Assembly (NCBI GenBank): GCA_013368325.1
Contig: JAACJK010000112.1
Coordinates: 1 to 64,000, forward strand
Reading direction: 5' to 3'
Length of the DNA stretch: 64,000 nt
From: Ephemerocybe angulata
Taxonomy: Eukaryota; Basidiomycota; Agaricomycetes; Agaricales; Psathyrellaceae
Below are positions 31,710 to 60,240 of the stretch, piece by piece. The notes below the pieces were generated by a model, which was not told where the DNA came from, searched no databases, and worked only from the letters and a program-made list of their open reading frames with translations. Position 1 is the first letter of the stretch. Every line of letters begins with the position of its first letter. The position numbers and the translations under genes are program-made.

Positions 31710-34030
31710 AACTCTCGGTTTCCAATGGTTCGCATCACTGCGAGGCCATGTCTATGTGGTGGGTCGGAGGTCGCTTGCCAAGCAAAGATCCGAGACAGAG
31801 GCCCAATTGGTCACCCGATTGGCCCTGCTAGGTCACCCGGATATTCTCCTGAGAGAAATTTTGGACATACGGGCTTTCCTGAAATGTTTCGTCCCCCTTC
31901 GATTTCAGTGCGGCGAAAGAAGACTGCTGACTCGGGAAAACCTAGTCGAAGAGGTAATTACTCAGCGCAAGCGAGCGTCTGGATTGTTGGCTTGAACTGT
32001 GGTGTTTGAAGGGGGAGTGGAGCCGCCGTGTCCTTGGTGTCTTGTTTGCTCTGGTAACGCGCCGATGGATGAGGATTGCAGTCGCAGATTTTCCGAAAAC
32101 TGACAATAGTATAGCTTCCCAATTCACCGCCGAGACTCGCAAGTCAAGTCGTGTCATAAAGGCCTCGAAGTCGGACCTTCTACACCCGGGAAGCACACTC
32201 TGCGCGAACCTGAGGAACGTTTCATTAAGAATCGAAAAACAAAATAACAATAAACGGGACGGACTCAGCGCGAAAACATGGAGGTGCATCACGTACCGGC
32301 AGTAATGACCAAGGCCAGTTTTACTGACCGGATCCCAGCCATCCCGAAACACGCGGAGAATATTCGCTTCCAGGCAGAACTGCTCCAGCTCCCACTCAAG
32401 GCCCATTTGCCCGGGGAGTGCGGTGTCCATGCTTCAGTGAGAATTAAGCGAGAAGTACCATGAGCAAGTAGCTCGCCACCGTCCGATCCGTGAGTCTGGC
32501 ACATCGCTTCTCATCGATACACTTGTGGTCAGAAGGGACTGAGATACATGGGCCGCACAATTCCCTGTTGCCGAGGGCGCGACCTTCTTCTAACCACACT
32601 TAGAGGCGATATGGAAGCTTGGTCGAAGGTGCGGGGAAGAATATAGCGGCCTTTGATAGGACTATAGCAGCAGATCGCCAGATTGTCGTCACACTTCTGA
32701 GTGACACGGTGTCGCTGTTCACCGGGACTCTGTTCGTCAACAAGGTTCTCGTGCAGCAGCAGGAGGCATATCCTGCTATAAAGATAATCATGTTCACACA
32801 CGGATTTTGACCGTAGATTCATGCTACGCACCGGATTCCCGTTGACTTCCTCAATGCAACCTGAGCTTCACAATATCATCAAAGGGCCCACCGTGGAAAT
32901 CGCCAGATCCTTCCTGCTTAGCCCCTAATACCACCTGAACAGCATGGTACATAGAATGAGCTCCTGTACACGTCGAATATTCGCGCCAAATGTGCTGCGG
33001 TTAGGCAAAACGTCTTTGCGGTGGAGAGACGATGGTGCAGGAAGACAAAACGCAAGGGAGCCGGGACGACGCGAGTCGGCGGGCGCCTCGCCAAAATTGA
33101 AGCCCCGCCACTTACTTAATCTCGAGCCTGCATCGTCCTGCAGTGCCACATCGTCCCATGTGGCCACGGCCATGGGAGATGCATTGCGTTTGTCTAATAC
33201 TTACGAAGGATAGAGAGTTATCATCACCACGGTAACTGCATATAGAGGGTCTGGCCATATATGTATGGCGGGCATCTCGTGAAGCAGCGCCGCCTGCGAC
33301 GGTGCGACATGATCAGACTGAGAGAAGAGCCTGTTCACTCCTGTCCTTGTCTACAGGATCGTTCATTCCGCAGTCGTCCTCGGACATTATGGCACCCTTT
33401 TCCTTTCCTTACGATCCGGTGCATCCCCTACCTCGGTTCCATCTGATAGATGGGTTTTCTCTGAGTTGGGCTCCGAGTCAGACCGAACTATCGTATGCCC
33501 AGGTTTGGACCTAGTTTACCCCTGGTCTATATTACTTTTCTCTGCGTCAGGACATGGCAGACCCTTATTAATACGCTAACACATTTCCATACGATTCCTA
33601 GAAACTTCTGATCTATTTTGAGGATACATTTAGGCGCCCACGCGCCTGATATCATCATCTCGCTCCAGAGGTTGGTTTGGGCTAACTCCATGCTTGCCAT
33701 ACAGGCTGTGTACTGCACCTGGAGATATACAGCCATTTATAAGAGTCTGGTAAGCCAGGGAAGGCAAAACATCGCGCGGTAAGAAACCCTAAGAAAAGAT
33801 CTTATCAGCGTCACATTGGCCGAGCCTGAAAGATTTGTGGCGCCAGCCACACTCTGGGTAAGTGTGCCCCCTTTACCCATGGTTTCAGCTCAGTTGTAGC
33901 TTCTCAGGACCTACAGTATCAATTTGTGGCAAACAGGCTTGACATGCGATTGAACTTGGGTATCCCGGATGGCAACAGCCTGAGGCCCAGATAAACTTAC
34001 GGAAAGCCAACTTGGCGCACCCGTCCACCG
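31710..34030. other. 2.3 kb intergenic region, no gene seen
   Basis: No reading frame with supporting motifs on either strand. It separates the four minus-strand secreted-protein genes from the divergent plus-strand copy. Confidence 0.45.
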
Positions 34031-43341: not shown

Positions 43342-43351
43342 GCTGAGAGCG
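43342..43351 (+). repeat. Left target-site duplication
   Basis: GCTGAGAGCG, repeated in the same orientation at the right end. Position matches the two TIR ends exactly. Confidence 0.7.
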
Positions 43352-43734
43352 GGGCAACCGTGAGCGAACCCGTTGGGAATTCCGCACCCAACCTGTTAGG
43401 CCATCAATTCCCCAACCTGTTGGTAAAACTGTGTAACTGCACCGATTAGGCTATCTTTGCATAGAGTATCAATACTTGTATTGACTTGAGTCAGAAGTAA
43501 ATGTAATGTTTTGTAGCGGGTAAGGAAGGCACAACTAGTCGATCTCAGAACTGCCCGAAGGCAAATGCATTGTATCTCTGGCTCAGAACTGCGGGACGAC
43601 ATTGATGCCAACCCCGGTTCCTCGTCGAGATGAGTGAACTCAGATCTGCCAGGGTGCGCGCCGCGGGATGTGGGAGGGTGGATTTACCTCATCTCAGAAC
43701 TGCGAAGCCTTAGAAGCCACGACTGGCTAGGCGA

Positions 43735-43850
43735 AACAAAAAATTACAATAGTCAGGGTTAGAACATGTGCTCGTAGAGTGTAGTCTATCGTAACATCAT
43801 ACCACTGAGCCAGCGGGGTGATACATTGTAGAGGGCGCGGACAGGGAATA
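43735..43850 (-). other. tRNA-like/SINE-like segment in the left TIR
   Basis: On the minus strand CTGGCTCAGTGGTATGATG resembles a Pol III A box and CACATGTTCTAACCCTG a decayed B box, followed by ATTTTTTG. The right-TIR counterpart keeps an exact B box (GTTCGAACCC). No convincing cloverleaf forms, so it is probably a tRNA-derived fragment. Confidence 0.4.
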
Positions 43851-44217
43851 GGTACCCGTTCGTTACAAGCGAGCGCGGGGCAATTGTTGAAGTGGGTGGG
43901 CTCAGAACTGCGAGTGAATATGTGAGCACGTCGGATACCTCACCCTCAAAACTGCGAGTACACGTACCAAGGCACCAAGCGGCCAAAAGGGCGGGAGGGG
44001 GGCGATGCCAGGCACCATCTCTTCAGAACTGCGTGTGGATGGGGGGTGGTTGTCAAGGTGGGCGTTGCCAGAACTGCGGGTGAATATCTGAATACATTGA
44101 ATAGTCCTTCCCCAGAACTGCGCGGGGACGTACCGGATTAAGCGCCCGAATAGGCGAGGGTGACGGTTTGTACACTGGGCGCCAAACACTATTTAATCAG
44201 AACTGCGCGCGGCAGTA

Positions 44218-44789
44218 TCGGTGGTCCATTTGTCGTCGGTGACTACACGGGAATATTATGTTGGTCCGATTTTCGAGCTTCCGGTTGTTCCGGTTGTTAA
44301 GACGTTTGGCGCGGGATTGATGAATTTTCGGAGTTTGAAACCGTTAATAAATACGACGTGGCGGGGTGCGTCTGTTTCCTTCCACCCCGTTGTGCTTGTT
44401 TTGGCTTCACACAACGGGGTCACAGGGCACCCAGCTGCGATGTTGATTTGCGCTGGGTGTCTAGGGGGGACTGCTAGGTGTCGCATCGTCAGCTTGCTGG
44501 CACAGCGTCCCGTGGAACCCCTGTCTTTAAACTTACGGTGATGGGCGACCTCAGGTTCCTCGGCTATGAGCTCGGTTTCGTGCGCTGCCTTTGTGGCATG
44601 CCTAGACGGCATTAGGCGCCCTCTGTTTAGAGTGACCTGGCGTCACGGGGGGGTGCCACCGCGCGCGAATTGCCGAGCACCTCTAGTTGGAGGCCTGCAG
44701 GCAACGTTCTGACCCCGACAGCCAATTTCCCGTTTTTCGGATTATTTCTTTGTCATTTCGAACGGGTTGCTATTGATTCGCTGGAGTTG
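44218..44789. mobile_element. 572 bp insertion inside the left TIR, 9 bp target duplication
   Basis: GCGGCAGTA occurs at 44,209-44,217 and 44,790-44,798. The right TIR has one uninterrupted copy of the same sequence in reverse complement (TACTGCCGC at 59,354-59,362), an empty site. The insert lacks the TCAGAACTGCG motif. It has no clear TIRs and no coding motif, but contains a perfect hairpin (ACCCCGTTGTG / CACAACGGGGT). Family unknown. Confidence 0.75.
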
Positions 44790-46065
44790 GCGGCAGTAGG
44801 CAGATTGTCAAAGTGGGCTAACTCAGAACTGCAGGTGAATATGTGAGCATACCAGATAGGTATATCTCAGATCTGCGCGGTGACGTACCGGTGTATACAC
44901 CCCAGAACAGGCGGGATCGGGACGTTGGGCGCTTGTCGAAGTGGGTGGGCCCAAAACTGCGAAAGGGGATGTGAGTGTGGTAGATAGGTCGCTCCCAGAA
45001 CTGCGTGTGAACACACCATGAATTAAGGCGGATAGATACGGGGGAAGGGGATGCCCGACTCTATTTTCTCAGAACTGCGCGGGGGCAAGGGGAGGCTGTC
45101 AAGGTAGGCAAGCTCAAAACTGCGGGTGAATATGTGATTGTGTCAAACCGGTCACTCTCAGAACTGCGCGGGGACGTACCGGAGGATCACACGACCAAAT
45201 ACGTGGGAGGGGGACAGCATTGTAGTTTGGGCGCTGTTTGGGCGCTAGTCAAAGTGGGCATGGTCAGAACTGCGTGATCATGCAAAAGTGGTCACTGCCA
45301 GAACTGCGCAGGGACATACCGGCGAATCGCGATTGCATCAAACCGGTCATTTTCAGAACTGCGGGGGGACGTACCGGAGCAGTTTGGGCGCTAGGGAAGG
45401 ATATGTGAGCATGCAAAAGTGGTCACTGCCAGAACTGCGCAGGGCGAGGGGTGGTGGTCGAAGTGGGTGGGCTCAGAACTGCGGAGGGACGTACCTACAT
45501 ATTAAGGGGAATACACTGCCGAACGGGTGGAATTATGAGATTGCCAGAGTCCATGTCTTCAGAACTGCGTGCGGAAGAGGTGTGGTGGGCGAGCTGGGTG
45601 AGGTCAGAACTGCGAGTGAGAATGGGCGCTAGTCGAAGTGGGCGAGCTCAGAACTGCGGGACGGCCATATGCGATTCCGCCGAATAGCCCTTCCTCAGAA
45701 CTGCAAGTGGACGTACCTGCAGATCACACACGCCCGAATAGGTGCAGGGGGACAGCGTCATCGTTTGGGCACTAGTCAAATTGGGCCAGGTCAGAACTGC
45801 GAATGGATACGTGACTTTGTCAGAAAGCTCACTCTCAGAACTGCAGGACGGCGTCGTAGTCGAAGTGGGCGATCTCAAATACACGTCAGGGGCAAGATGT
45901 CATAGTCCAGCATCTCAGAACTGCGCCTGAACAAGAAACTAAGCGCCAGCCTTTGCGGCCCCTTTGCCATATATTTCCCGATCGGGATTCGGCCCGTCCA
46001 ACCAAATTTGATTTACCGCCGAGATACCATCTTACCTCTCCCACCTCCAGCCCCTCCCATCACCC

Positions 46066-46440
46066 ATGGCCCACGACACCAAGCCGCCCAAAAAGAAATA
46101 TCAAAGGCCACCACCAATTATAAACGAACACGGGCATCTCGAGTGGCGAGTGGAGGTCATACTCGAAGCAAAGCTACGCCGTCGGATCGGAGGGATGCGC
46201 CGATCGCAAATTTACAAGATACGGTGGAAGGGATACCCCCCCGATGATGACACATGGGTTACGCATAAAGCTCTATTGAAATGCAAAGCTCTTGACCAGT
46301 GGCTTGAGACCCAGAAGCGTCAGGTATGCATCCATTCTCGTCATTGCCCAGGCACTTATCCCATGTATTAGGCAGTCCAAATCAAACCCGAACCTAAGCT
46401 GGAGGACATCGTGAAGCAGGAGAACCCCTACACCCCATAA
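46066..46440 (+). CDS. Stand-alone chromodomain protein (transposon cargo)
   Basis: Two exons (46,066-46,323 and 46,372-46,440) encode 108 residues. The chromodomain spans about residues 26-84: HLEWRVEVILEAKLRRRIGG, YKIRWKGYPPDDDTWVTHKA and CKALDQWLETQKRQ. Aromatic and acidic positions of a methyl-lysine reader are mostly kept (W in the first strand, W of IRWKGY, W of DDTWV). The basic N-terminus could bind DNA. In fungi such domains usually sit at the end of Ty3-type integrases; here it is a separate small gene just inside the left TIR of a DNA transposon. A role in targeting the element to, or protecting it from, H3K9-methylated chromatin is inference. Confidence 0.8.
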
Positions 46441-46592
46441 ATACTTTAGAATAGCATCCCCGTAATAGATTTTTCACCCCGACCGCCACTGTACCCCGTC
46501 CGTCAGCAAGAAGTCGCGAATAAATGACACAAATACAATAATAATATACTAGATATGCTGCATTACCATATTGTATGTATAATTGAAAATCT

Positions 46593-46670
46593 CTAAGACC
46601 TCATAGTGCAGTGGTTGTGGTGACCGGGTGTTGTCCCTAGTCGGTACCGGGTTCGAACCTGTCTGAGTGT
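46593..46670 (+). other. tRNA-like sequence with A and B boxes
   Basis: TAGTGCAGTGG fits an A box and GGGTTCGAACCTG a B box at the normal spacing. CTAAGAC and GTCTGAG could form an imperfect acceptor stem. The T arm has mismatches, so this is more likely a tRNA-derived element than a functional tRNA. It lies between the chromodomain gene and the convergent accessory gene. Confidence 0.4.
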
Positions 46671-46839
46671 ATGTTATTCAGCGCCTGTTTTTTTACTTGA
46701 ATTCTCGTCATCAGTGCTGCGAAGTTCCAAGTTCAATGGACTAAGTCAGATCGCCGCTGGCTATACAAATTCATACACTTATCAATACACACGGGGTAAG
46801 AGGGACAAAGCATTGTTAGGGAAGCAAAGTACAAGAACA

Positions 46840-49572
46840 CTATTCACATTCAGAGCTGTCTTCAGAATCGGAGCTGTCGCTACCACTACCCGACTTCCCT
46901 ACGGTCTCATCCTCACCAACACCGCGAATCAAAGCCCTTCCTCCTGCCAAATTTGCATCCTTCTCCTCGTTCGGCTGCGTGGCATCAGAGTCTGGCTCGG
47001 TATCGGTCTCGCTGTCGCTCGCTCTTTGCAGCTCGAGAATCTTAGCCCGATGCATTGAACGAAACGCGTGCCTCCTGGCCGCCCGCCTAGCCGAGATATA
47101 CTTACCGTTCTCGTCGATTTGGAAAATCGAATCGAGAGTCCCACAGTTCGCATAATGAATCGCGACCAATGCGAGGCGGTCCCGTGGATGAGGCGGCCTG
47201 AGTCTCCCTGCCCCCCATCCCTCTGCCAACCCGCTGGACCACGAGCTCACGTTCAAAGTCTTCCAATAGTAGAAGTCGATGAGGACTTCGTGGAGAACAC
47301 ACCCGCAGTGGAGAACACGAAGTCCGTTAACGACGGGGAAGAACGCAACGACTCGTTCCTTCGTGAAGTTGGGGTTAGGATCCCCCTTCTTCGCGCCGGG
47401 CCTTCTCCTCGTGGGGGGATCGAGGTAGTTGATGGGGACAAGGGGCTTGAAATCGGTGCCCTTGTCCGGGGCATAGGGAACGCCGGTGACATTATGGAAT
47501 GTCGAGTCGTTGTTGTCGTCGTACTTGGGGGTCTTGCCGTGGTCGTGCATCGTGTGGTAGTGGCAGACCGTCCGACCCTTCTGGTTGATAAACAGGTGAG
47601 CGGCGAACTCAAACGACCATGACGACCAATCGGCCATAAGAGGGGCAGCGCGGCGGACCCAGGTGCGCAACTTGGGCGGGATCGGGTCCCTCCATCTGAC
47701 AAACGTCTTGGCGGCGGCTTCACATTTGTCTACCCGAAGAGTGAGGATACGATATTACAACATGGCGAAAGGGCGACTCACCAATTAAGTCGTGCTGATC
47801 CTTCTCTGGGAGAAACTCATACTTGTCAGTCTTGTGATCGTCGTTCACGCCTTTGGGCTTACGGCCCCTCGCATGCTTGTTGACCTTCTCGAGAAAGAGC
47901 TTCCCGCTCTTCGTAATCCTGGCAGCCATTTTCTCTTGCTCCTTCCGCTATACAGGACGTTAACCTCGCAGATTGAGAGCGAAGTGTACACGCACCTGAT
48001 CCTTTTCCCTCTCCTCCTTCTCCTCCTCGGGCGCCTTCTCCTCTGGCGCCTTCTCCTCTGGCACCTTCTCCTCTGGCACCTTCTCCTCGGGCGCCTTCTC
48101 CTCTGGCGCCTTCTCCTCAGGCGCCTTCTCCTCCTCGGGCGTCTTCTCCTCCTCTGGCGCCTTCTCCTCCGCCGCCGCTATCTCAACGCCGTAGTCGGAA
48201 TCCTCGTCAGAGGCCCAATACGTTGCAACCTCCGCCAGCACCGCCCCAAACCTCGGCCAAGGATCTTCATCCACCCCGACGTCGTCAGAATCCCGGTCAG
48301 AAGAGGTGGGGTGGCCGCCCTCGTCGCTGCTATCGGTCTCGGAGCTGGTGTCGGTGTTTTGTGCAGAGTCGGACGTCCGGAAGTCATAGAAATCCGGGTC
48401 CTCAATCAAGCCCCAGTCGCGCTTTCCCTTCTCTTGAATAGCCACCTTCCAATCCACCTCATCACTCTCGTCTCCCTCATCGTCGCCATCGCCATCGTCG
48501 CCATCGCCATCGTCGCCGTCGCTGTCATCCGTGAACTTGGCGGACTCGTCGCTAGTGGACCAGTTGTTGTCCTCGACGTCATAATCACCACCCGCGACCA
48601 GCACGTCAACGTCAAGCGGATCGAACCCATCGTACTGCTCGAGCAGTGCCTGGAGCTCATTCAGGTGTGGAGCAGTAGAGGCCGTCATCTCGAGCTCAGC
48701 TTCGTCGGGTGGGAGCAGCGAGGCGGGCGGACGGGGCGGCGGAGACGAGCCAGGACGGGGGGGACCTTCCTCCCGGCGATGCTGTTGGGGATGTGCAGCA
48801 GTGTGCCCAGGGAGAGTAGCAGCCTGCGATAGAGTTACCAGCGGCTGCGCGGACGGTGTGGACGCTGGTGACGGTTGAGGTGGTCCATCCCCACTACGAG
48901 GCAGCGATTGATTAACGGGAGGCTCCTGGCGAGGGGGAGTAGATGGTGGGTCTGAGAGAACTGAAGAAGCCGCAGGTAATGCTTCTGATAAGCCAAGTAA
49001 GTAATCGAGAAGCCGAAACAGAGTTAGATTACATACGTGACTCTCCAACACGGGCGCGTTTAGACGCGTCTGCAGCACTGGCCTGGGGCGAGAGGGGGCG
49101 CTTCTGACTACCAGCATCCTGCTCCGTAGTCGCCGCCACTGTAGCTGTAGCACTTGAAGGCTCTGTAGCCGCCGCCGTACTTAAAGTCGCGCCTCGCCTC
49201 AATAGACTGGCTTTACGGTTCAACAACCTCCGTACGTTACTACTGAGCGTCCTTTGAATCCCGCTCAGTCGCGATAGTTCTGCTTTGTCCACTAGAGTAC
49301 CGAAGGTTAAAGGAGCACACTATGTGAATAAAGACACGTACTGCCAGGAATAGCCTTCAAATCCTTGATCTCTTGAATGCGGGCGTTACACGCTGAGAGG
49401 TAGGCCACCACGTTGTCGAGACCCTCAGGCAGGGCATTGGAAAGGCTATGTTCTGGGAAAGAAGAGCATCGACTGAGCCTTGTAAAGTCGCATACCAGGG
49501 AGACAAATTCCTACCGATAACAGCAAGGGGGACAGCAACGAGGGGGACAGCAGTTGAATCCTCTGTGGCCAT
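46840..49572 (-). CDS. Transposon accessory protein with CxYHxxxDH / LHCGC core
   Basis: Six exons (49,572-49,515; 49,452-49,342; 49,291-49,037; 48,984-47,996; 47,947-47,782; 47,729-46,840) give 822 residues. The N-terminus is alpha-helical (SLSNALPEGLDNVVAYLSAC). A disordered Pro-rich stretch and a long acidic segment (DDSDGDDGDGDDGDGDDEGD) follow. Next come about ten EEKAPEE-type repeats and a basic patch. The C-terminal core contains VCHYHTMHDH, VTGVPYAP, LHCGCVLHEVLIDFYYWK and LVAIHYANCGTLDSIFQID. Conserved Cys and His (C, H, DH, HCGC) suggest a metal site. The same core occurs in the relic at 6.2-9.0 kb. I do not recognise a named family. The acidic tail ends SDSSDSEDSSECE. Confidence 0.75.
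48020..48172 (-). repeat. Coding tandem repeat, EEKAPEE units
   Basis: Units of 18-24 bases (GGCGCCTTCTCCTC on the + strand) encode about ten EEKAPEE/EEKVPEE/EEKTPEE repeats. The lengths vary by whole codons, typical of slippage in a disordered acidic region. Confidence 0.85.
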
Positions 49573-49801
49573 GGCTGTACGAAAAAGCGCTACGCAGTTC
49601 TGAAGAAAGGGAAATCCACAATCCTGCTGGTTCGGTTCGTCCTGATTATGAGCGGGTCGACGATCAGGGTAATCCCGATATAGACATGCGCATCGGCTAA
49701 CACTCGCTTGTGGGGCGCGCATGCGCGCGGAACAAACAGTAGAATGAAGAATATAATTCACCCAGGGAGAGGAAGCACATAGTGCAAAGAAGATAACATA
49801 T

Positions 49802-51469
49802 TTAGACCAGAGAATCAGCAGCTAAGGAAGCAGACGTGGAGTACAGACCTATTCCATCATTCCAACGCACATCGTCCGCACCGTCAACAGCCACTTTGAA
49901 CGCTCGTCCTGCTCCAGTGCTCGAGAGCTTCGTACCGGCCTTAAATCCATAAGCGACCCAGCGAAAGAGGCCTCCGGCAGCATACTGTGCCATTGACATG
50001 CGTTCCTCACCCGGTTGGATCGGGGTATTGCTGTGTTTCATCGCGGCAGACGGTAAAAGGGCGACTGAGCCGGGGGGGAACTCCACAAGGAGCTTAAGTC
50101 CATGGAGAACAAGGTGACCACCCTTCCTCCAATCGAACGTTCCCAGTGGTGTGAGTGCGCAGAGACCGAAGGACAGATTGTTATGGTCGAAGTGCTCGAT
50201 GGAAACGCTCTGTGGCCCACAGTTGAAGCTCGCCGCAGGGAAGACGCTGTTGTCGAAGTTCCACTGGAGCTCCCGATGGTGCGCAAAGAGCGCCGAAAGG
50301 TCGGACGCGTAGCGACGATAGAGCATGGGAGCAATCATGGAGAAGGCACCTGAGCAGCCCAGACGCGCGTCAGTGTGGAACCGGCCCTGACAAACCAGCC
50401 AAGGCTTACTTGATTGGTATCCGGCTAGCCGACGAATGGCGGCATTGCGCAAGATAGACTGCGCGATGCGTCGCCGCGAGTACACAGCGTGAACGAGGTT
50501 TCCCGGTTTCTAAACAGAGAAGTGTAAGAAGAAGCCCTAAAGCCATACCAGGTTTATAGTCTCACCGTCTGCCCGCCCCCCATCGACACACCCACCGGAA
50601 TGGCCAGGAACCTTCCGCGGCGATGCTTCAAAAAGCTTGCCGAGTACGCACTAAGGTTCATCCCGGTGAGACGAGCCAAGCGTAGGCAGAGTCCGGCGCC
50701 CGAGACCACGCTAGGCCAGTCTGAGCCGGGTGCTCCGGCGATAAGTCCCCCAACAATGACGTCGTTTGCGTCGACAAAGAGTACGTTCGTGCTAAAATTA
50801 AGCGCCCGGCGTCAAAATCAAATACCACTCCAGAGGTCATGAAGGGAGACAGGAAGGATGCGACGTACCCTGGAGTATGTTCAACGTATTGATAACCTTC
50901 CTTCTTCAGCTCTTCAACCGTCCACGGCACCTTCTTCCCCCTGCTATCCCGGCGTCCAATCCAAGCACCACCGCCGCTGTGAGGAAGCGTGGAGGCTGCG
51001 ATTGAAGCACGAACCATTCGGTCTGTTTTCCCGTATTTTCGAAGGGTACTCGGCTTCGGGCGGTAGGTAACAGCCGCGTTGAGAGAGGAGGCAAGGCGTT
51101 CTGCTTTGGCGCTAGATCGCCGCAAGGAGCGGCGCCTCGACGATCCTGAGGTTGCGGAAGTGGTGGGCTTGAGGGCCGTGGTGGTGGGTACGGAGGGAGC
51201 GGGGAGCTCGCGATTCTTTTCGAAGGAGGCGGCCTAAAGGTGTGGACGCATTAGGAGAGCTACGGAGTAGGATAATAGTGTAGTGCACGTACGCCGGCCA
51301 TAACAATTGCACTAAAGATGTCGCTCTCAGGGACGGGGCTAGGCGCCCTGGAGAGCACCTTCAACTCCCCAGTTTGAATCTCATCCTCGTCGAGGGCGTA
51401 GTTTCGAGCCGCCTGGATACCTTCGGCAGCTTCTATTTCGCCAGTCGCATCCCAATTGGTCTCCCACAC
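49802..51469 (-). CDS. TET/JBP-type 2-oxoglutarate/Fe(II) dioxygenase
   Basis: Five exons (51,469-51,293; 51,233-50,869; 50,791-50,566; 50,509-50,410; 50,349-49,802) give 471 residues. The disordered N-terminus is followed by DANDVIVGGLIAGAPGSDWP, then GVSMGGGQTKPGNL, which fits the fungal TET/JBP signature before the catalytic fold. The double-stranded beta helix contains FNCGPQSVSIEHFDHNNLSF, with the HxD iron ligands at ~342/344. Next are GGHLVLHGLKLLVEFPPGS, the distal His in AAMKHSNTPI (~395) and the 2-oxoglutarate Arg in EERMSMAQYAAGGLFRW (~406). All catalytic residues are present, so it may oxidise 5-methylcytosine in DNA. TET/JBP genes are known to be expanded with KDZ transposons in basidiomycetes. 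Upstream exons beyond the chosen Met are possible. Confidence 0.88.
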
Positions 51470-52366
51470 CGAGAACTCGGCCTGAGCACTATCATCAAAG
51501 GGGGAGAACGAGGCGCCAGAACGCGTCTACCGGCCGTCGTCAGCCACAGAGAGCATGATTCAATCGAATACTTACCGTACTGCTGCCCATATGCGTGCCT
51601 GTGGAGTATAACATCTTGAAACGGCTCCCTAGAGCGATACAGGTGAGTGAGTAGCGGAGCTCGGCGCACAACCGAATCATGGCGCGGGATCTCTCCCAAG
51701 GGCCTACGGCGGGTTGCTAGGACCCTTGTGTGGGATCCATAGGCCACCTGCCTGCTACCCCGCTGGGCCTCTGGGTGAACGCTGGGGAGAACGCTGGGGA
51801 GAAGGGTGCAATACCAGGCGACTAGGACCCAAGTGTGGGATCCACAGGCCACCCAGTACCGCTCGGATGCCGCTCGACAAAGGCTGGGAAAACATTAATA
51901 CTCACTTGGTGGGGCCCGTCTTGTATCTGGAGAAACTAGATGGGGTGAAGAAGGGGGGAGATCGCAAGTTATAAGCAGCGTGTTGGCGTCAACCAGACTG
52001 GGCGGAGGTTTCACTTTGATTATGAAACTTCCGGCCTAATTTAAGAGTTAGTTACGTTCAGAAGTCAAACAGTGACGTATACGTGCTGTAAGGAATTTGT
52101 ATGGCCCGCTGAAAGGGACGTGCAGAAGAAGAACGTAACATTTTGGACGAAAGGTGCACGGATATGACCTAAAGCCAAGTATGATCCCATGTTTGATCTC
52201 ATGAACTTCGCGCAAAACCTGGACGCACGTCGTATTTTCCTGTTCTGGCATCGCCTGGCGCAAAACAAGTGCTCAGTTGGAAAGGTATAGTACCAATATG
52301 ACCTTCTCATGCGATGTTTTGCGGTTGTATTGCCCTGGGCGCCCATAATTCCCGTATCTTCAACGG
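51470..52366. other. Intergenic region within the transposon
   Basis: No convincing gene. Two similar blocks (TAGGACCC-TGTGTGGGATCCATAGGCCACC near 51,718 and TAGGACCCAAGTGTGGGATCCACAGGCCACC near 51,826) form a direct repeat of about 30 bases. An extra 5' exon of the TET/JBP gene could lie around 51,480-51,600. Confidence 0.4.
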
Positions 52367-52437
52367 ATGTCACTGATAGTCACTGACGCCCTCCGCCGTC
52401 ACTGACTGTCACTGACTGTCACTGACTGTCACTGACC
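52367..52437. repeat. Short tandem repeat of GTCACTGACT
   Basis: About five near-perfect ten-base units (GTCACTGACT/GTCACTGATA) in tandem, just downstream of the gene at 52,549-53,272. Confidence 0.85.
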
Positions 52438-52548
52438 CATCTTCGCATGTCTCCTCTTTTGTATAGGGTTCACCGTTCAAGGTGCAATATTCCGGCCCTC
52501 AATCATGGTCATAGTAATGTATATATATTCAGAGGCCTATATATCTAT

Positions 52549-53272
52549 CTACCACTCGTCAGCGCTCCCAATTCCAACTTCATCGAACATCTCATCCCAG
52601 TCGAGCTTAGATGTAAATGCTACCTCCTTGTAAGTCTCCTCCCATATTCCATTCCAATCGCTGCGGCGACTTGAGTTAGGTTTGCTATGCCAAGTGATAA
52701 AGACGGCAACGTACTTGGCGTATCTCAGCCTTTTTCGCCTCTCCAGCTGCGCTGCCTCCAGGACGTCCATAACGAACTCTCGTTGACGGCGTGATATGCC
52801 GCGCAGTGCTTCATTGATGTCTTGGGTAGTGGGGTAGTTGGGAAGCCGCGGTAGAATACGCTTATCAACGGCCGGTGAAGCAATGGGAGGCGAGGACGGC
52901 GGGAGTGATTCCGCTTGACGCCGTGGAGGAGTGCACGGAGCAGGGAGCGGCGGCGATGGTTCTGGAGGAGGAGTAGGCTCTGCCTCCTCCATCTCCTTCA
53001 AGCGGCGACGCCTCCTTCTTTGCCGCTCTGCAGCGTCCTCCTGTGATTTTGGCAGATTCCTGAAATAAATTGTAGTAGTAAGTAAGTGTGATTGTGGGCA
53101 ATAAAGTGGTCACGTACTTGTAGTAATGGGTCTTGCTTGATTTGCTACTACTGGCGCGACGCTTTGCCAGGCGGTGAGCATCGTCGCATGCCTGTACGAA
53201 GTCTCGAAGGCTTTGGCCCTTAGGCTTATCGCCTTTCCCCTTAGACTGACGAGACGCCTGGACGCGAGTCAT
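52549..53272 (-). CDS. Transposon accessory protein, small basic/acidic, unknown
   Basis: Two exons (53,272-53,118 and 53,059-52,549) give 221 residues from MTRVQASRQSKGKGDKPKGQ. An alternative in-frame Met at 53,323 adds 17 residues. The basic N-terminus (LAKRRASSSKSSKTHYYK) is followed by a charged helix (EDAAERQRRRRRRLKEMEEA), a proline-rich stretch, and a conserved-looking end with ISRRQREFVMDVLEAAQLER and SKLDWDEMFDEVGIGSADEW. No domain recognised. It lies between the TET/JBP and cysteine-cluster genes on the same strand. A further 45-base in-frame intron near 52,714-52,670 cannot be excluded. Confidence 0.6.
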
Positions 53273-53354
53273 GAGTGAAAGAAAGGTCGTATAGGATCCA
53301 GAATGTTGGAGACGCTGGATCAATTTTCGTGGATCGTCACGGTCCGGAGTTTAA

Positions 53355-53455
53355 GCGCTGAAGATAAAAAAAAGATGGGGTTACCGGGGTTCGAACGAGA
53401 GACCTCATCAGCATTGCATGCACGCATACTGACTGGACTATTGTTCGCTTTACAA
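53355..53455 (-). other. tRNA-like Pol III element with terminator
   Basis: On the minus strand TAGTCCAGTCAGTATG fits an A box and CTCGTTCGAACCCCGG a B box. The sequence runs into CATCTTTTTTTTATC, a strong Pol III stop. The arms do not pair as a cloverleaf. It is best described as a tRNA-derived fragment between two accessory genes. Confidence 0.45.
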
Positions 53456-53557
53456 TACCAATTCTTGAGATTACCTAGCTACACGACAGGATCAGGAATG
53501 TGCCAAAAAAAAAAGGAAGAAATTGACGCAAGGCCCGAGATACAAGTCACATCTAGT

Positions 53558-54788
53558 CTAATCGTTGTTTACGGGCAGGGGTGGGCTAACATGAAGACCT
53601 AGAAGAAGGTCTCGAACGCTTTTTTGAGCTGCCATGTCTGCTTTAAGTCGTGCGAGCTCTTCCTGACTGTCGCGAAGTGCCTTTTCGGCCTGTGCTGCCA
53701 AATCATTCGCCTCCTTTACCTTCTGGTCGGCGATCTCCTGAACTCGAACGACATTCAGGTCAGAAGCTCGGTCCGCTGCCTTCACGGTGGACATGGTCTT
53801 CCCCATGAGCTTGTGGATGTCCTTAAGCTCCTCCTTAGCATCCTTACGGAACTTTCGAGAGGCGTAGTTGAGGAAGGGAGTCTTAGAGGCTGGGTTCTGA
53901 ACGGCGAGGTAGACCCAGCTGTTCGTCCTCTCGCCGATATCCTCGCACTACGGCCTGTAAGCGAAGGAGACGAGGAAGAGGAAGATAAATACACTCACAC
54001 GAGTGATCAGGTCGCGGGTGAGATTGTCGTAAGCTCGCGAGGAACTCTTCGCCGTGAGGTACCGGGCCTTGAGCTTACGGACTCGAGGCATAACTGAAGT
54101 GAAGGTGGTGGTCAGCAGAGCAACAAGGTCAGATGCGTAGCACGTACGAATTGGGACGCTACCACGAGCAGCCCCCTTGACCGTCTTGAAGAGGGGATTC
54201 TTGCCGGAAGGATAGAGCCGCTTCGGGGGGCCTTTCTTGGCAGGCGACGCATCCTCCGGATTGTACGGACCGAGGGCTACATTGGGCTGTACCTCAACCT
54301 GCGTAGCGTGTACTTGAGGGCCAGTGCGAACTGGCGTGGTAGGGAGTGATCCTTCAGAGGGAGAAGGAGGGCCGGCGTTCGGATCGACTTGAGACGGCGT
54401 CGCGTTTGGATTGACTTGAGACGGCGTCGACTGCGCGTGGGGCGTCGCAAACGAGAGCGCAGGGAGAGGGCCTTGGGGAGGCGAAGAGAACGAAAGCGCA
54501 GGGAGAGGGCCTTGAAAAGGACTGGATCCCGGAAACAGGGCTGGGTCCAACCACCCGGGATTTTGCGCTGGGGACGTCACTGGGGAGGGCAGAGCGTTAA
54601 CCTTGAAGGCCTATGCCACGGTGAGCAAGTGGACACAGGGACGACGCCTTTGTAACATAACTCACCTTCCGACGGCCACTGGAACATGGACATCCGGCCT
54701 TCAATGGGTTGTCCGGGCAGATGCGACACCTACGAGCGGCACGCGGCTTCGACGGTGATGACCCTTTCCCGCCGCGCGATGAACCCAT
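53558..54788 (-). CDS. Transposon accessory protein, cysteine cluster plus coiled coil
   Basis: Four exons (54,788-54,666; 54,610-54,148; 54,093-53,999; 53,947-53,558) give 356 residues. The first exon is basic with a cysteine cluster (CRICPDNPLKAGCPCSSG). Exon 2 is Pro/Ser-rich with FQGPLPALSF and QGPLPALSF repeats and ends KNPLFKTVKGAARGS. Exon 3 contains YDNLTRDLITRV. Exon 4 has EDIGERTNSWVYLAVQNP and an alanine/glutamate-rich coiled coil (ANDLAAQAEKALRDSQEELA). The order matches the relic at 0.65-2.43 kb. It is divergent from the transposase gene (346 bases between starts) and may be co-regulated with it. No named family. Confidence 0.72.
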
Positions 54789-55134
54789 GGGATCGGTGGA
54801 GGAGTGAGGGAGGGGGCGTATTCCGGAGAGAAGGAACTTGGAATTTTTACGAGGTCATGATTTTGGCCCGCCCCTGCCCATCGCCTTGCGCCTGAAGCTT
54901 GAACCGGTGGCTCGTTGTGTGAACCGGCGGCTCGAGTCGCTGTGGGCCAGGCTATCTATCCCCTTGTGGGATGGATATCGTCGGATTCCACATGTAACCC
55001 GCTTATCGTCGGCGCCCGGCGTCGGCTAACAATGACTGTTAAGCGCCGTCCTTTCTGGCCTTTTCTGGCCTGTCTTGAAGTGCAAAATTGGGTACGTCCC
55101 TCGATCGGTCGGTCATTTGAGTGCGCGATCTAGC
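54789..55134. promoter_or_regulatory. Bidirectional promoter between accessory and transposase genes
   Basis: A 346-base interval separates the divergent starts. No TATA box stands out. A TTAAGCGCC motif near 55,038 recurs elsewhere in the element (near 44,138, 50,798 and 53,353). Confidence 0.4.
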
Positions 55135-58100
55135 ATGGTAATGAAACGACCAGCTCAGGCTGAGCCTGAGCTGGATTCCGATGAGGAGTACCCTGACTAC
55201 CCTGACGATCTGCTGGACGATGACGAGCTGCCGCCCGAGGTTGGCTCACCAGTCAAAAGAGCTCGGTGGAGTCACGTACCTTCTCAGCAGCGACGCAATG
55301 ATCTCGATACCTCGACATCTCACACTACAACAAGGTCAGCGGCTGTCAGTACAGCAGGTGAAACGGACGGAGAACGCTTTGACGGCCAGTGGGGTGGGCA
55401 AGGAGATGTCTGGGAAGACGCTGGTGGTGGATGGGAAGGGCATATGGAGGATGTCATGCCCAATATTGATGTTCCGCCGCGAAATGCCGTCAGCGACGAA
55501 ACCTCCAGTCCACTCAACATCACCAAACACCAGGTACAAACATTCTACGATGCCATGCAGGCTTCGGCCGTGGGGTTTGCGTTTATTGAGGACAAGATAT
55601 TTGCTGTCGAAGGTTGGAACTTGGCGAGAGGGAAGGGAACGGTACGCACCTCGCATTGTTTGATATCCGGCACCACACTTACCAGTTGCAGGGCATCTGG
55701 TACCACCTTGAGTACCTCTGGTTAGAGGACGAGCTTGCCATTGCCTGTACATGCCCAGCAGGGCTTAGAGACGACTACTGTATCCATAGAGTCGTCTATA
55801 AGCAGTATGATTTGCGGCATGTCCAAGGGTTTGCGCAGTCGGTTGAGTGCGAAGGTGTGCCCTTCCCTGGTTGTCACTATTCTCGCCATGTTAATGAGAA
55901 ATAGATGTACAGGTCACTATGTTCTATCGTCAGCGACTCCTCGAATCGGACGACTTCCTCACCATATTTTCGATACGCAGCCCCTCCCAGTTTGGAGCCA
56001 AGGGCCGCGCGATGGTTTCTCATACGGGCAGTTTGCCGACTCGCGGCGAGTGGCATTGCTCAAAATCCCACTCCTCGAGCTCAAAGTGCGCTCATGTCCC
56101 TGCCGCGAGGAAGGTTCTGCTTGATGTTCTGGGTATTGACGAGGGGACAGTGGATGAGACGCATGTGAAGGAGGTGGTAGTTAGCCCCCACCCAGGTCAG
56201 TATCTCATCACCTCGTTCCTCTAGATTTTTCACTCATGCTATATGTAGTCTATGAAAGGGGTGCGGTGTCCTATCTTCCTGTACTCCCACCTGTGTTGCA
56301 TGCCCTGCGTTACGATCCGGTTTTATACCCTCGCCCGCCTCCCTTTCGCGACCCACCCCTCCCCGCTCAGTTCTTCCATCTCGACCTCTCATCAACATGT
56401 CCATGCCCTCTTCCACAAAGGGCTTCCTTCAATCCTCTGGGTAAACGGTCGGAACTCCATACGTGCTGGGTGTACACGCTCTGCGGCGCGTTCGAAGCTC
56501 AGATCGAACTCCAAGAATGCCCCAACTGTTTCTCGGATACCCAGCGATGTGTGGGCCCCGATCTTCGGGAAAAGGGCCTTTTCAACTTCAACAACGGAAC
56601 GATTGTCAGCCACGAGCTTCTCGATGAGTATACTGTTGCGTACTCGACTTCCGAAACCCCCTTCTCCGCCTTCGTCATTCAGATGGAGCATCGCTACTGG
56701 AACTCCACCACGAACTTCCTGTCTCCGGATGTCTTTCGTGCAGTTTGGTTCTCGTACGTCTCTATCCAGGCTTTCGAGGGCGACATGGCCTGTTCTCGGT
56801 GTGGCCCGTCCCCAGACAACGTTATATTTGACGGTGTGACAGTGGCCTTCGATAAGAACCGCCTCACTTCGACAATCACACCGCCGACCGAAGTACCACC
56901 GGGTTCTTGGGATAGACCCCTCGTCAAGAACATGACGATGCAGCAGCTCATACCCGACGCTGGCATTCGCAAGGCCATTCGGCTGGTAATGGACAGCATA
57001 CGGAGTCCTTCCAAGGCAACACCTGGCAACAGTCGTGCTACGGTCATCCCCGAAGAAGCGCAACCTGAAGACCTCGCAATTAACGGAACACAGGAGGCGG
57101 ACATCCTAAGGATCGACTATGTCTGCGAGGCGCTTATGGAGTTATGCCCAGCGCTGTGCGCACTCTTCCTCGAGCATTGCGGATACGTCGCGTACAGGGA
57201 CAAAAAGCCCGTTCCTCGTGTGTACCGAAGCTTCTTCCTGCAGGTGAGTATGTCCGCCTTTGCCCGTGCTTATGCTTACCAGATTCGTTTTCAGGTCGCT
57301 GCAGAGGAGTCGGTACTGCAGCTGGTTAACGGGCGGTCACACCCTTCCCTCGTTAAGTTCCTCGCAGACCCAAGGCCTGAGAGCATCACGCAGCTCATTG
57401 GAATACCCGGGCTTTACCTTTTGGTCAAAACGCATGGTACGAATCGCCTAGCGTCCCTCCTGCCTATACTCCGGTGGATTGAAGAGCGAACGGCCATCGT
57501 GTGGGCTGCGATCACGGTGGACTCAAGGCCTATTCCCATTGTAACTATAGACACCCACCCTGAGCTTGGCGTAAGCTGGAGGAAGGTATGTCTGCGACTC
57601 GGTTGCATCTCGCTGTTTCTCTCTCGGTTTCTGCAGTAGCTGATGGTGAACGTGTAGACGGGGTGCTTCTATCACCTCCCTCAGATTCGAATCCGACCCC
57701 GGTACTCCAAGCTGATCAGTGACCGCAAGAAAGCGGATTCACAGCGGGGAGGCGATACCTGCGGGAAGTTCTACTCAGAGTATGGCGAACAGTCGCTCAC
57801 CGGTGGGATAATGGCGGTTTGGTGTACTCATAGCGTTTGCTATGGCTTCCATTGCATCCCGTCCAGCGAGGGTCGAAACGACGTCTTCTCGGCGTTGGTC
57901 ACTCGGTGGCCGACCGCTCCCAAGATGGTTATCTACGACTTCGCTTGCGCCCTTGGTCCGTACTGCCTCATTCGCGAGCCCGAATTCTTCAAGAATACCC
58001 TTTTTGTGATTGACAAGTTTCACACTGCCGGCCATACCAAGTGCAGCCCCGCGGCCTTCCTCGACCAATACTCAGATACGGATATCCGCCTATCTTCCAT

Positions 58101-58251
58101 CAACTCCAGTGCTGGAGAAAGTGGAAACAGCTCTTTACGGCGTGTGCGTAAATCTCTTAGGTATATGACTCAGGACCATGCTATCATCTATACCAAGGTC
58201 TTTCTATCGATGTGGAATCGTCGCACTATGATCAAGAAGGGTTTACAGTAG
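55135..58251 (+). CDS. KDZ-family transposase, HMGXB3/CxC type with SWIM-like finger
   Basis: Six exons (55,135-55,641; 55,686-55,854; 55,905-56,195; 56,249-57,243; 57,295-57,585; 57,658-58,251) give 948 residues. After an acidic N-terminus comes a SWIM-like finger (~190-205, CTCPAGLRDDYCIH), then a second cluster (WHCSKSHSSSSKCAH, ~277-290). A CxC-type cluster follows (CWVYTLCG, CPNCFSDTQRC, GPD, ~396-424), then CSRCGPSPDNVIFDGVTVAF (~504-523). The KDZ catalytic region begins TGCFYHLPQIRIRPRY and contains VIYDFACALGPYC (Asp ~845), FVIDKFHTAGHTKCS (Asp ~870) and INSSAGESGNSSLRR (Glu ~905). These acidic residues are candidates for the DDE triad. No stops or frameshifts are needed. The first intron (44 bases) is short; its borders are the least certain. 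Confidence 0.88.
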
Positions 58252-58329
58252 TGTACTATGCATATACCAGGCCTCTTAGTATTCAATACCATATGCTTTT
58301 CTGTTCTACTTCTTCTTTTTGCCTTATCG

Positions 58330-60230
58330 TCCCACGCAGTTCTGGGAGAGTGGTGTTTCACGCCGAGACGGTACGTTCCCTCGCAGTTCTGAGAGCAATG
58401 TGGATGTCCTGCTCACTCGTCTCTCCGCAGTTCTGACCTTGGGCCCTTTGTCTTGTCCTTTCATTCTCATAAAAGATTTTGATTGCCCGCCAAATGCTCT
58501 CAGATAACACTTTTGTTCGAACCCCCGTCGCGAAGTGGTACGAAGCCCGGTTCGAGCATATCTCTTCAGATGTTCGCTCCCACTACGTACGACTTCTGGG
58601 CGGGGGTTCCCATCCCTCTTTTGCCACTTTTTATTTATTTATTTATTCATCTCCGCGCAGTTCTGGAGAAGGGCAATTTCATATCCGGCCGGCGCTTAAT
58701 CCGGTACGTCCCAGCGCAGTTCTGGGGTATGCCTTTTTGACGTTTTCAAATAGCCACCCGCAGTTCTGAGGAGGCCCACTTCGACATACGCCCATTTTCC
58801 AAGCACAGTGCTCCTGAATTCGATAGCCTGCCAAACACTCTTGCATCTAACCGTATCTCGAACCCCCGTCGCGAAGTGGTACGCAGGCCGGTACGAACGT
58901 GTATTCATACGTTCATTCCTACTCCGCACCCCTTCTGGGCGGGGGTTCCATTCCCTATTTTGCCATTTCTTTATTTTGATTTAACCCTGCCTTGGTAGGT
59001 CGACTCGCAGTTCTGGGAGTGACCTGTTCAGCACTTCCCGCAGTTCTGACCTCGCCCACTTCGACTAGCGCCCAAACGATGACGCCGCCTCCCTCCGCCT
59101 ATTCGGGCTTTTGTTCCGCCCCTTTCTTTTCCTGTGCAGTTCTGAGGGGGAGCTCTCTGACAAACTCACGCATCCATTCGCAGTTCTGACCTGGCCCAAT
59201 TCGACTAGCGCCCAGACGATGACACCGGCCCTCTCCGCCTTTTCAGGCGTGTGTGATCCGCAGGTACGTCCACTCGCAGTTCTGAGAGAGGGCTATTCGA
59301 CGCAATCGCATATTCACCCGCAGTTCTGAGTTCGCTCACCTTGACGATCTCCCTACTGCCGCGCGCAGTTCTGATTAAATAGTGTTTGGCGCCCAATGTA
59401 TAAAAGCGTCACCCTCGCCTATTCCGGCGCTCAATGCAGTACGTGGCCGCGCAGATCTGGGGGATGGCTATTTGACGTATACAGATATTCACCCGCAGTT
59501 CTGACAGCGCCCACCTTGACGACCACCCCCCATCCACACGCAGTTCTGAATAGATGGTGCCTGTCATCTCCCCCCTCCCGCCTTTTTGGCCGTGTTTCCG
59601 CCTTGGCGCTTTGGTACGTGTACTCGCAGTTTTGAAGGTGAGGTATCTGACGTGCGCACATATTCACTCGCAGTTCTGAGCCCACCCACTTCGACAATTG
59701 CCCCGCACTCGCTTGTAACGAACGAGCGCCTATTGCCTGTCCGAGTCCACCACATTGTATCACTCCGCTGGCTCAGTGGTATGATGTCACGGTTGACTAC
59801 ACCCTACGAGCACATGTTCGAACCCTGACTATTGTAATTTTTTGTTTCGCTCAGCCAGTCGTGTTTTCTAAGGCTTCGCAGTTCTGAGATGAGGCAAATC
59901 GGCCCTCCCACCTCCCGTGGCGCGCACCCTGGCAGATCTGAGTTCACTCATCTCGACGGGGAACTGGGGTTGGCATCAATGTCGTCCCGCAGTTCTGAGC
60001 CAGAGATACAATGCATTTGCCTTCGGGCAGTTCTGAGATCGACTAGTCGTGCCATCCTTACCATTACATTTATTTCTGACTCAAGTCTAGGCGAAGTCAA
60101 TACAAGTCATTGATACTCTATTCAAAGATAGCCTAATCGGGGCAGTTAGACAGTTTTACCAACAGGTTGGGGAATTGATGGCCTAACAGGTTGGGTGCGG
60201 TATTCCCAACGGGTTGTTCCATGCTTATCT
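58330..60230. repeat. Right terminal inverted repeat with CGCAGTTCTGA array
   Basis: The array carries the same 11-base motif as the left end, in reverse complement (CGCAGTTCTGA). 59,354-60,230 pairs colinearly with the left TIR. The inner part (58,330-59,350) is array of the same kind but not colinear unit by unit. It also holds two copies of a ~110-base block starting CGAACCCCCGTCGCGAAGTGG (near 58,517 and 58,861) that contain tRNA-like boxes and end in GGGCGGGGGTTCC. Confidence 0.88.
59755..59845 (+). other. tRNA-like segment in the right TIR
   Basis: CTGGCTCAGTGGTATGATG (A box) and CATGTTCGAACCCTG (B box) are followed by AATTTTTTG. It is the counterpart of the left-TIR segment and keeps the intact B box. 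Confidence 0.45.
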
Positions 60231-60240
60231 GCTGAGAGCG
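60231..60240 (+). repeat. Right target-site duplication
   Basis: GCTGAGAGCG, identical and in the same orientation as 43,342-43,351. Confidence 0.7.

Follow-up and report, generated by a model that had tools for sequence, protein, structure and literature searches.

Element structure and gene content

The first 64,000 nucleotides of contig JAACJK010000112.1 from the agaricomycete Ephemerocybe angulata (assembly GCA_013368325.1), hereafter the window, contain what is, judged by its sequence features, a complete KDZ-type DNA transposon with six open genes within one pair of inverted ends. This element, E0, occupies 43351..60231 (16,881 bp, no strand assigned); its limits are based on comparison with sister loci in the same genome, named E1-E4, and its ends read GGGGCA on the left and CAGATA on the right, the right end being read inward. 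Gene models were spliced by hand from the sequence, and their splice sites are predicted.

The chromodomain gene CHR (46066..46440, forward strand; 108 amino acids, 2 exons) lies leftmost and is followed by four genes on the reverse strand. Gene D (46840..49572; 822 amino acids, 6 exons) has no fold assigned and contains a conserved core, roughly from residue 525 to 780, in which the motifs CHYHT and HCGC occur. The TET/JBP dioxygenase gene (49802..51614) has six exons (51614-51576, 51526-51293, 51233-50869, 50791-50566, 50509-50410 and 50349-49802). The unassigned genes B (52549..53272; 203 amino acids, 3 exons) and A (53558..54788; 374 amino acids, 3 exons) encode, respectively, a protein with a basic N-terminus and one with an N-terminal CxxC...CxC motif and a helical C-terminal part. 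The KDZ-type transposase gene (55135..58251, forward strand; 6 exons) encodes a CxC4 cysteine cluster and a KDZ-like C-terminus. An earlier interpretation, made from the letters alone (the sequence-only reading), had proposed an uninterrupted transposase of 948 residues, and the hand-spliced frame has exactly this length. It had also listed five further intact genes; all five frames reach a stop, the TET/JBP model having since been revised to 503 amino acids once an additional 60-nt intron was identified.

The transposases of E0-E3 match the CxC4 profile at 142-147 bits (cut-off 26.9). Matches to the Pfam KDZ profile (cut-off 26.6 bits) scored 21.2 in E0, 13.4 in E1 and 19.1 in E3, at a common C-terminal position, with none in E2. 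Upstream of CxC4 (about residues 185-290; 55,686-56,195) all five transposases contain CTCP...C.H and W.CSKSH...C.H.P stretches, the first of which resembles a SWIM zinc finger. CHR matches the Chromo domain at 37 bits (cut-off 25.1) and MPP8 with an E of 3e-6, and its sequence resembles MPP8/HP1 chromodomains. Its aromatic positions W/Y, W and Y, presumably those of the chromodomain cage, are present in all five elements. The C-terminus of CHR (46372-46440) reads IKPEP...IVKQE, a stretch that resembles a pair of SUMO acceptor motifs.

The predicted fold of the last exon of D (predicted local distance difference test, pLDDT, 72.9) had no match in PDB better than E 6, and we claim no function for D. 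When residues 535-760 of the long D model served as protein query, none of 1,890 candidates matched; a 4-row profile search afterwards found 11 matches.

Sister elements and shared ends

We searched the host genome (58.7 Mb, 232 contigs) for further copies. Protein searches with the transposase and the TET enzyme revealed at least four further loci with both genes in the same divergent layout, among the best 48 of 189 transposase-search candidates, which were scored. E1 (C125:147,285-163,552), E2 (C125:885,312-901,943, reverse) and E3 (C150:69,304-84,779) are complete, whereas E4 (C107, reverse) is truncated: its left end is present, but the stretch examined showed no right end. E3 and E4 are close, with 90% DNA identity around the transposase, and E4 begins with GGGGTA exactly where its similarity to E3 begins.

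All four complete elements (E0-E3) carry GGGG(C/T)A at one end and CAGATA at the other, with an exact 8-bp direct repeat immediately outside. These target duplications are CTGAGAGC in E0 (43343..43350 on the left and 60232..60239 on the right, no strand assigned), ACCGGTTT in E1, GAACCTCT in E2 and GTGCTCGG in E3. Sister copies thus share their end points, which upholds the proposal that the locus is a single self-contained transposon. The sequence-only reading had described a 10-bp flanking repeat, GCTGAGAGCG, whose two exact matches in the window lie at 43,342 and 60,231. Comparison with the sisters corrects this: the 10 bp consist of the 8-bp duplication plus one chance-matching base per side. 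Shuffled sequence gave a mean of 0.30 matches, and 3 of 100 shuffles reached two matches anywhere, so the repeat by itself is modest evidence; it is its position at both ends that carries weight.

The long inverted ends noted earlier are present as arms of about 0.86 kb (43367..44217, forward, and 59354..60215, reverse), aligned as a single gapped match of 863 columns with 89% identity, but they do not reach the tips. The outermost 16 nt of both ends are mismatched, and pairing starts at 43,367, going inward. The gene-enclosing inverted arms of E1, E2 and E3 span 112, 77 and 58 columns, respectively, at 75-79% identity, and the unmatched tips outside the arms measure 12-21 nt across E0-E3. The terminal hexamers switch sides relative to the genes: CAGATA lies on the transposase side in E0 and E3, and GGGG on that side in E1 and E2.

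To gauge these assignments, we scanned each of the four sequences exhaustively; in each, a single hexamer pair more than 3 kb apart had an exact 8-bp repeat, and this pair was the assigned ends. Among 20,000 random point pairs, 2,042 had an 8-bp repeat within the windows scanned, 216 a 10-bp repeat and 22 an 8-bp repeat together with both hexamers, the last group coming from sequences that contain the true ends. The direct-repeat test is weak by itself because so many random pairs pass it, and the hexamer test is partly circular because the hexamers were derived from E0-E3. The left end of E4 and the empty sites of E2 are independent evidence.

When the flanks of E2 were joined by one copy of GAACCTCT, two uninterrupted places on C117 matched across the junction, at 70% and 68% identity. 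The three-way alignment is gap-free for 38 columns to the left and 100 columns to the right of the junction, with a 3-column gap further left, and the eight target bases are identical in one C117 copy and have one mismatch in the other. By sequence, these places are paralogous empty sites of E2. The joined E2 sequence is open for 199 amino acids, and the joined flanks of E1 are open across all 200 codons. No junction-spanning empty site was found in the host genome for E1 or E3.

A short motif, CAGAACTGC, occurs 45 times in the window (shuffle mean 0.63). Twenty-four copies lie at the left end of E0 (43546..45924), all on the forward strand, and 19 at the right end (58336..60035), all on the reverse strand; of the two remaining copies, that at 49,594 is internal to the element and that at 32,375 lies outside it. 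E3 carries a different oriented repeat, AGCCTGCA (26 versus 1), and E2 carries GGAAGATA (14 versus 2), while the same repeat analysis showed no oriented end repeat in E1. We infer that the oriented end repeats, 43 of them in E0, are putative family-specific binding sites of the transposases.

All four window matches to another motif, GTTCGAACCC, lie inside E0 (46649, 53387, 58515 and 59816; shuffle mean 0.17), and each inverted arm has a single TGGCTCAGTGG, at 43802 and 59769. The two resemble the A and B boxes of transfer RNA (tRNA) genes; ARAGORN calls no tRNA, and neither this program nor Rfam returned a match in the 64-kb window.

Searched at the DNA level, the left end of E0 recovered the window element and the contig C186, and nothing else. 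C186 duplicates window positions 30,180-54,610. We considered it as the other haplotype and rejected this, since it differs from the window by 0 substitutions and 101 insertions or deletions over 24 kb; it is rather a duplicate, poorly polished contig, and the idea that the insertion is present on two alleles was dropped. C186 also has a 5.7-kb insert in its copy of the left end (C186:13,463-19,168) that contains direct repeats of 147 and 223 nt; it may be a long terminal repeat element that inserted recently in part of the nuclei, or else reflect faulty assembly. A second, near-identical family of the same transposase has at least 15 loci (L027-L041), of which 11 lie within 17 kb of a contig end, which suggests a subtelomeric KDZ family.

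Conservation of the gene set

Using tblastn or spliced alignment, we recovered transposase, TET, A, D and CHR in each of E1-E4, so that these genes are present in all five elements. Gene order, which the proposed search for further copies was to compare, is the same in E0 and E1 and shifted in the others: CHR lies between TET and A in E2, and B lies between D and TET on the opposite strand in E3 and E4. Protein identity among E0-E3 is 50-60% for the transposase, 34-46% for A, 30-49% for D and 36-50% for CHR; TET proteins are 60-62% identical within E0-E2 and 30-34% identical to that of E3. Codon position three is the most divergent in 30 of 30 pairwise comparisons, with the weakest excess in D and CHR, which fits selection keeping the proteins.

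Gene B is clear in E0, E3 and E4. Its full-length scores of 112 in E1 and 91 in E2 compare with a 20-shuffle maximum of 69 (forward strand of E1), and proline-rich matches on the wrong strand score 74-108. The two less repetitive ends of B were then used as queries, with 100 shuffles for each: the N-terminal part was equalled by 0 and 0 of 100 shuffles in E1 and by 0 and 9 in E2, and the C-terminal part by 6 and 0 in E1, a weak result, and by 14 and 98 in E2. Thus the N-terminal part of B is probable in E1, and the presence of B in E2 is uncertain. Given the wrong-strand scores and the absence of the C-terminal part in E2, we rejected B as a gene of all five elements.

A probable divergent TET/JBP enzyme

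The Pfam Tet_JBP profile matches the window enzyme below its cut-off (13.6-15.5 bits versus 34.9; E 0.01-0.04), whereas 25 other places in the genome exceed it. We therefore name the enzyme TET-like by fold and regard it as a divergent kind. Searching with the window protein yielded 55 relatives; all those with a species name are agaricomycete, and the closest come from Ephemerocybe, Coprinellus and Candolleomyces (Psathyrellaceae). The predicted structure of one Ephemerocybe relative, P0001 (69% identity over 59% of the window TET), has a mean pLDDT of 95.7, and in a Foldseek search against PDB it matched CcTET (E 5e-11), then NgTET1 and CMD1, with human TET2 lower. The P0001 model thus has a double-stranded beta-helix fold closest to TET/JBP structures, and the fold evidence is that of this model. 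Across 60 sequences the catalytic HxD...H positions are occupied by H in 59, D in 58 and H in 60, and the 2-oxoglutarate-binding R is present in 59.

Could the protein be, instead of a methyl-DNA enzyme, a 2-oxoglutarate oxygenase of a different kind, such as a prolyl hydroxylase? Besides the low Tet_JBP score, two database entries bear that name, and 2OG-FeII_Oxy_3 matches 8 of the 40 sequences scanned. Sequence-profile searches of PDB with TET, D and A gave chance-level matches only, none of them to CcTET, and the window enzyme has N and C at D+3 and D+9 in place of the Gly and Asp of CcTET. Nevertheless, the first 21 Foldseek matches of P0001 are all CcTET, NgTET or CMD1 chains, Tet_JBP matches 14 of 40 sequences (best 3.4e-5), and the corresponding enzyme of E3 scores 28.3 bits (E 1.2e-6), so that we consider such an activity very improbable. 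A divergent TET/JBP-like enzyme, closest to CcTET by predicted fold, is the supported assignment. Both identities offered by the sequence-only reading, TET/JBP and chromodomain, are in this way borne out, the latter by the Chromo and MPP8 matches.

Proposed core partners and accessory module

We then asked which genes accompany related transposases elsewhere in the genome, bearing in mind that many transposase and D copies are near-identical and hence not independent. A genome search with the D core as query showed that 22 of the 45 scored transposase loci have D within 20 kb, on the far side and divergent in 22 of 22, and 17 of these 22 loci lack TET. TET lies within 20 kb of five of the 45. 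Conversely, 27 of the 49 D places have no transposase within 20 kb among the matches listed, many D places being near contig ends, and 20 of the 25 TET places have neither transposase nor D. A TET-less relative on C202 (12.8 kb) contains transposase, A and D; TET, CHR and B are not detectable in it.

Because D and A accompany TET-less transposases, they appear to be core parts rather than cargo: by its genomic neighbourhood D looks like a core partner of this transposase group, and so does A, which was seen beside one TET-less relative. TET and CHR, perhaps with B, appear to have been added as a module in a single clade. The sequence-only reading had treated A, B and D as three cargo genes of unknown function; no function was assigned to any of them, and D, and in one case A, are better described as core-like.

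A tree of 16 transposase last-exon sequences places E3 and E4 as sister to E0 (0.999) and separates the E0-E4 clade from TET-less copies (0.989). The TET tree, built from 60 sequences over 409 columns and rooted at its midpoint, disagrees: E0, E1, E2 and P0001 group together, and E3 and E4 are distant, E3 being 2.47 from its nearest other leaf, compared with 0.62-0.67 between E0 and E1/E2. Replacement of TET is the simplest reading of this conflict, and TET was probably replaced at least once in the E3/E4 lineage. An old duplication followed by the loss of different copies would produce the same pattern, and the TET tree, midpoint-rooted and printed without support values, leaves room for it. 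The firm transposase grouping of E3/E4 with E0, the large distance from their TET to that of E0-E2 and P0001, and the fact that no element has two TET genes make this history unlikely in our view, and exchange of TET is preferred.

A possible anti-silencing function

Taken together, the data make it likely that E0 is a complete transposon of the KDZ kind in which D and A would serve as partners of the transposase, and TET and CHR, perhaps with B, may form a clade-specific accessory module against silencing whose TET slot was probably exchanged at least once. Under this model, the transposase would bind the oriented repeats near both ends, excise the element and insert it at an 8-bp staggered cut, with D and A acting as general partners in transposition or end recognition. 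On silenced copies, methylated bases would be oxidised by the TET/JBP enzyme, while CHR, by binding methylated histone H3, would help to recruit either this activity or the transposase to copies in heterochromatin. As the anti-silencing idea requires, the host genome has DNA_methylase-family matches, at four places. That such a gene set could edit or evade its own silencing, as first suggested from the sequence, is plausible, and Kojima 2025 (PMC12730594) puts the idea forward in general terms for TET genes on transposons.

Several observations weigh against this model. The Pfam KDZ match is below cut-off in all four transposases scanned (E0-E3), E0 is present as a single copy in the genome, and no empty site spanning its junction was found there. 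The absence of CHR and B from TET-less relatives is seen in one of them, that on C202. The chromodomain and the TET enzyme are separate proteins, linked here by co-carriage alone. Finally, CpG depletion as a footprint of methylation was not seen: CpG ratios are 0.90-1.00 in the five TET-carrying elements, 0.80-1.02 in six TET-less pieces and 0.91 in the window to the left of E0, the TET-carrying and TET-less ranges overlapping.

With no protection of the element's own DNA visible in these ratios, and with 25 other Tet_JBP places in the genome, TET and CHR of an otherwise real transposon might instead serve the host genome, competing elements or insertion itself by opening target chromatin. Both genes are kept in five diverged elements, however, which fits a benefit to the element, and the main-text parts of Kojima 2025 (PMC12730594) argue, from the many TET-carrying families per genome, that every TET acts for the family carrying it. 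We rate these other beneficiaries as rather improbable and favour the anti-silencing module.

More tentatively, and with considerable doubt, the element may be a two-part machine, in which a histone-mark reader and a DNA-mark eraser, the latter a TET kind outside the three published types, form an exchangeable cassette added to the core genes for transposase, D and A. The element-specific end repeats would provide the address, and the element's own silenced copies would be found by their chromatin and then cleaned.

The roles of TET/JBP enzymes in fungal transposons have so far gone untested, and five diverged elements with a common gene set, in one genome that also offers exact ends, an empty site and TET-less relatives as natural controls, make the anti-silencing idea directly testable. 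They also suggest that D is a core protein of these transposons that has been overlooked, and that a reader of histone marks accompanies the eraser of DNA marks.

Comparison with known systems

TET-carrying KDZ transposons have already been published; the multi-gene architecture described here appears to be a new form within that known kind. Kojima 2025 (PMC12730594), in its main-text parts, describes complete TET-carrying transposons, Kyakuja and Zisupton of Agaricomycetes among them, and proposes escape from methylation silencing; like E0, these are KDZ-group elements with their own TET/JBP gene. According to passages of a 2026 review (PMC13297926), transposon TET enzymes still await functional work. 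Those main-text parts of Kojima 2025 are silent on chromodomain genes and on a set like D, A and B. Our literature search, which covered freely available papers without their supplements, found no report of a fungal transposon that carries both TET and a chromodomain gene, nor a description of a chromodomain-containing set across five elements, of a D/A core as opposed to a TET module, of TET exchange or of unequal tips.

Kyakuja is characterized in the same text by 7-bp duplications, CA..TG ends and no terminal inverted repeats (TIRs), a combination that E0 does not show: its duplication is 8 bp, its ends are GGGGYA/CAGATA and it has inverted arms. The 8-bp duplication, exact in all four complete elements, is shared with Zisupton, Dileera and KDZ1. 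Of the three TET types that Kojima distinguishes, the PE type lacks the HxD that the window enzyme retains, and the Gly/Asp pair of CcTET (at D+3 and D+9) and of the Kyakuja AG type is missing from the window enzyme. As far as his text, rather than his alignment, allows the assignment, the enzyme appears to fit none of the three.

KDZ1-3 of Cryptococcus neoformans (PMC12810828) are, in the text passages of that report, mobile and likewise long KDZ elements with TIRs, and their duplications of 8 bp (KDZ1) and 4-8 bp (KDZ2 and KDZ3) resemble that of E0. They differ in their size of about 9-11 kb, in their TIRs of 139-241 bp and in having CxC1, as opposed to CxC4 in E0; those passages do not name a TET or chromodomain gene. 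For Marasmius oreades, the text in part (PMC8290104) refers to KDZ and Plavaka elements, the TIR and end motifs of which are described in a supplementary figure. Outside the fungi, the plant VANDAL elements, as cited in the main-text parts of Kojima 2025 (PMC12730594), are DNA transposons that carry their own sequence-specific anti-silencing factor. The proteins are unrelated to those of E0, so that the parallel, an element that would bring along the means to counter its own silencing, is one of analogy.

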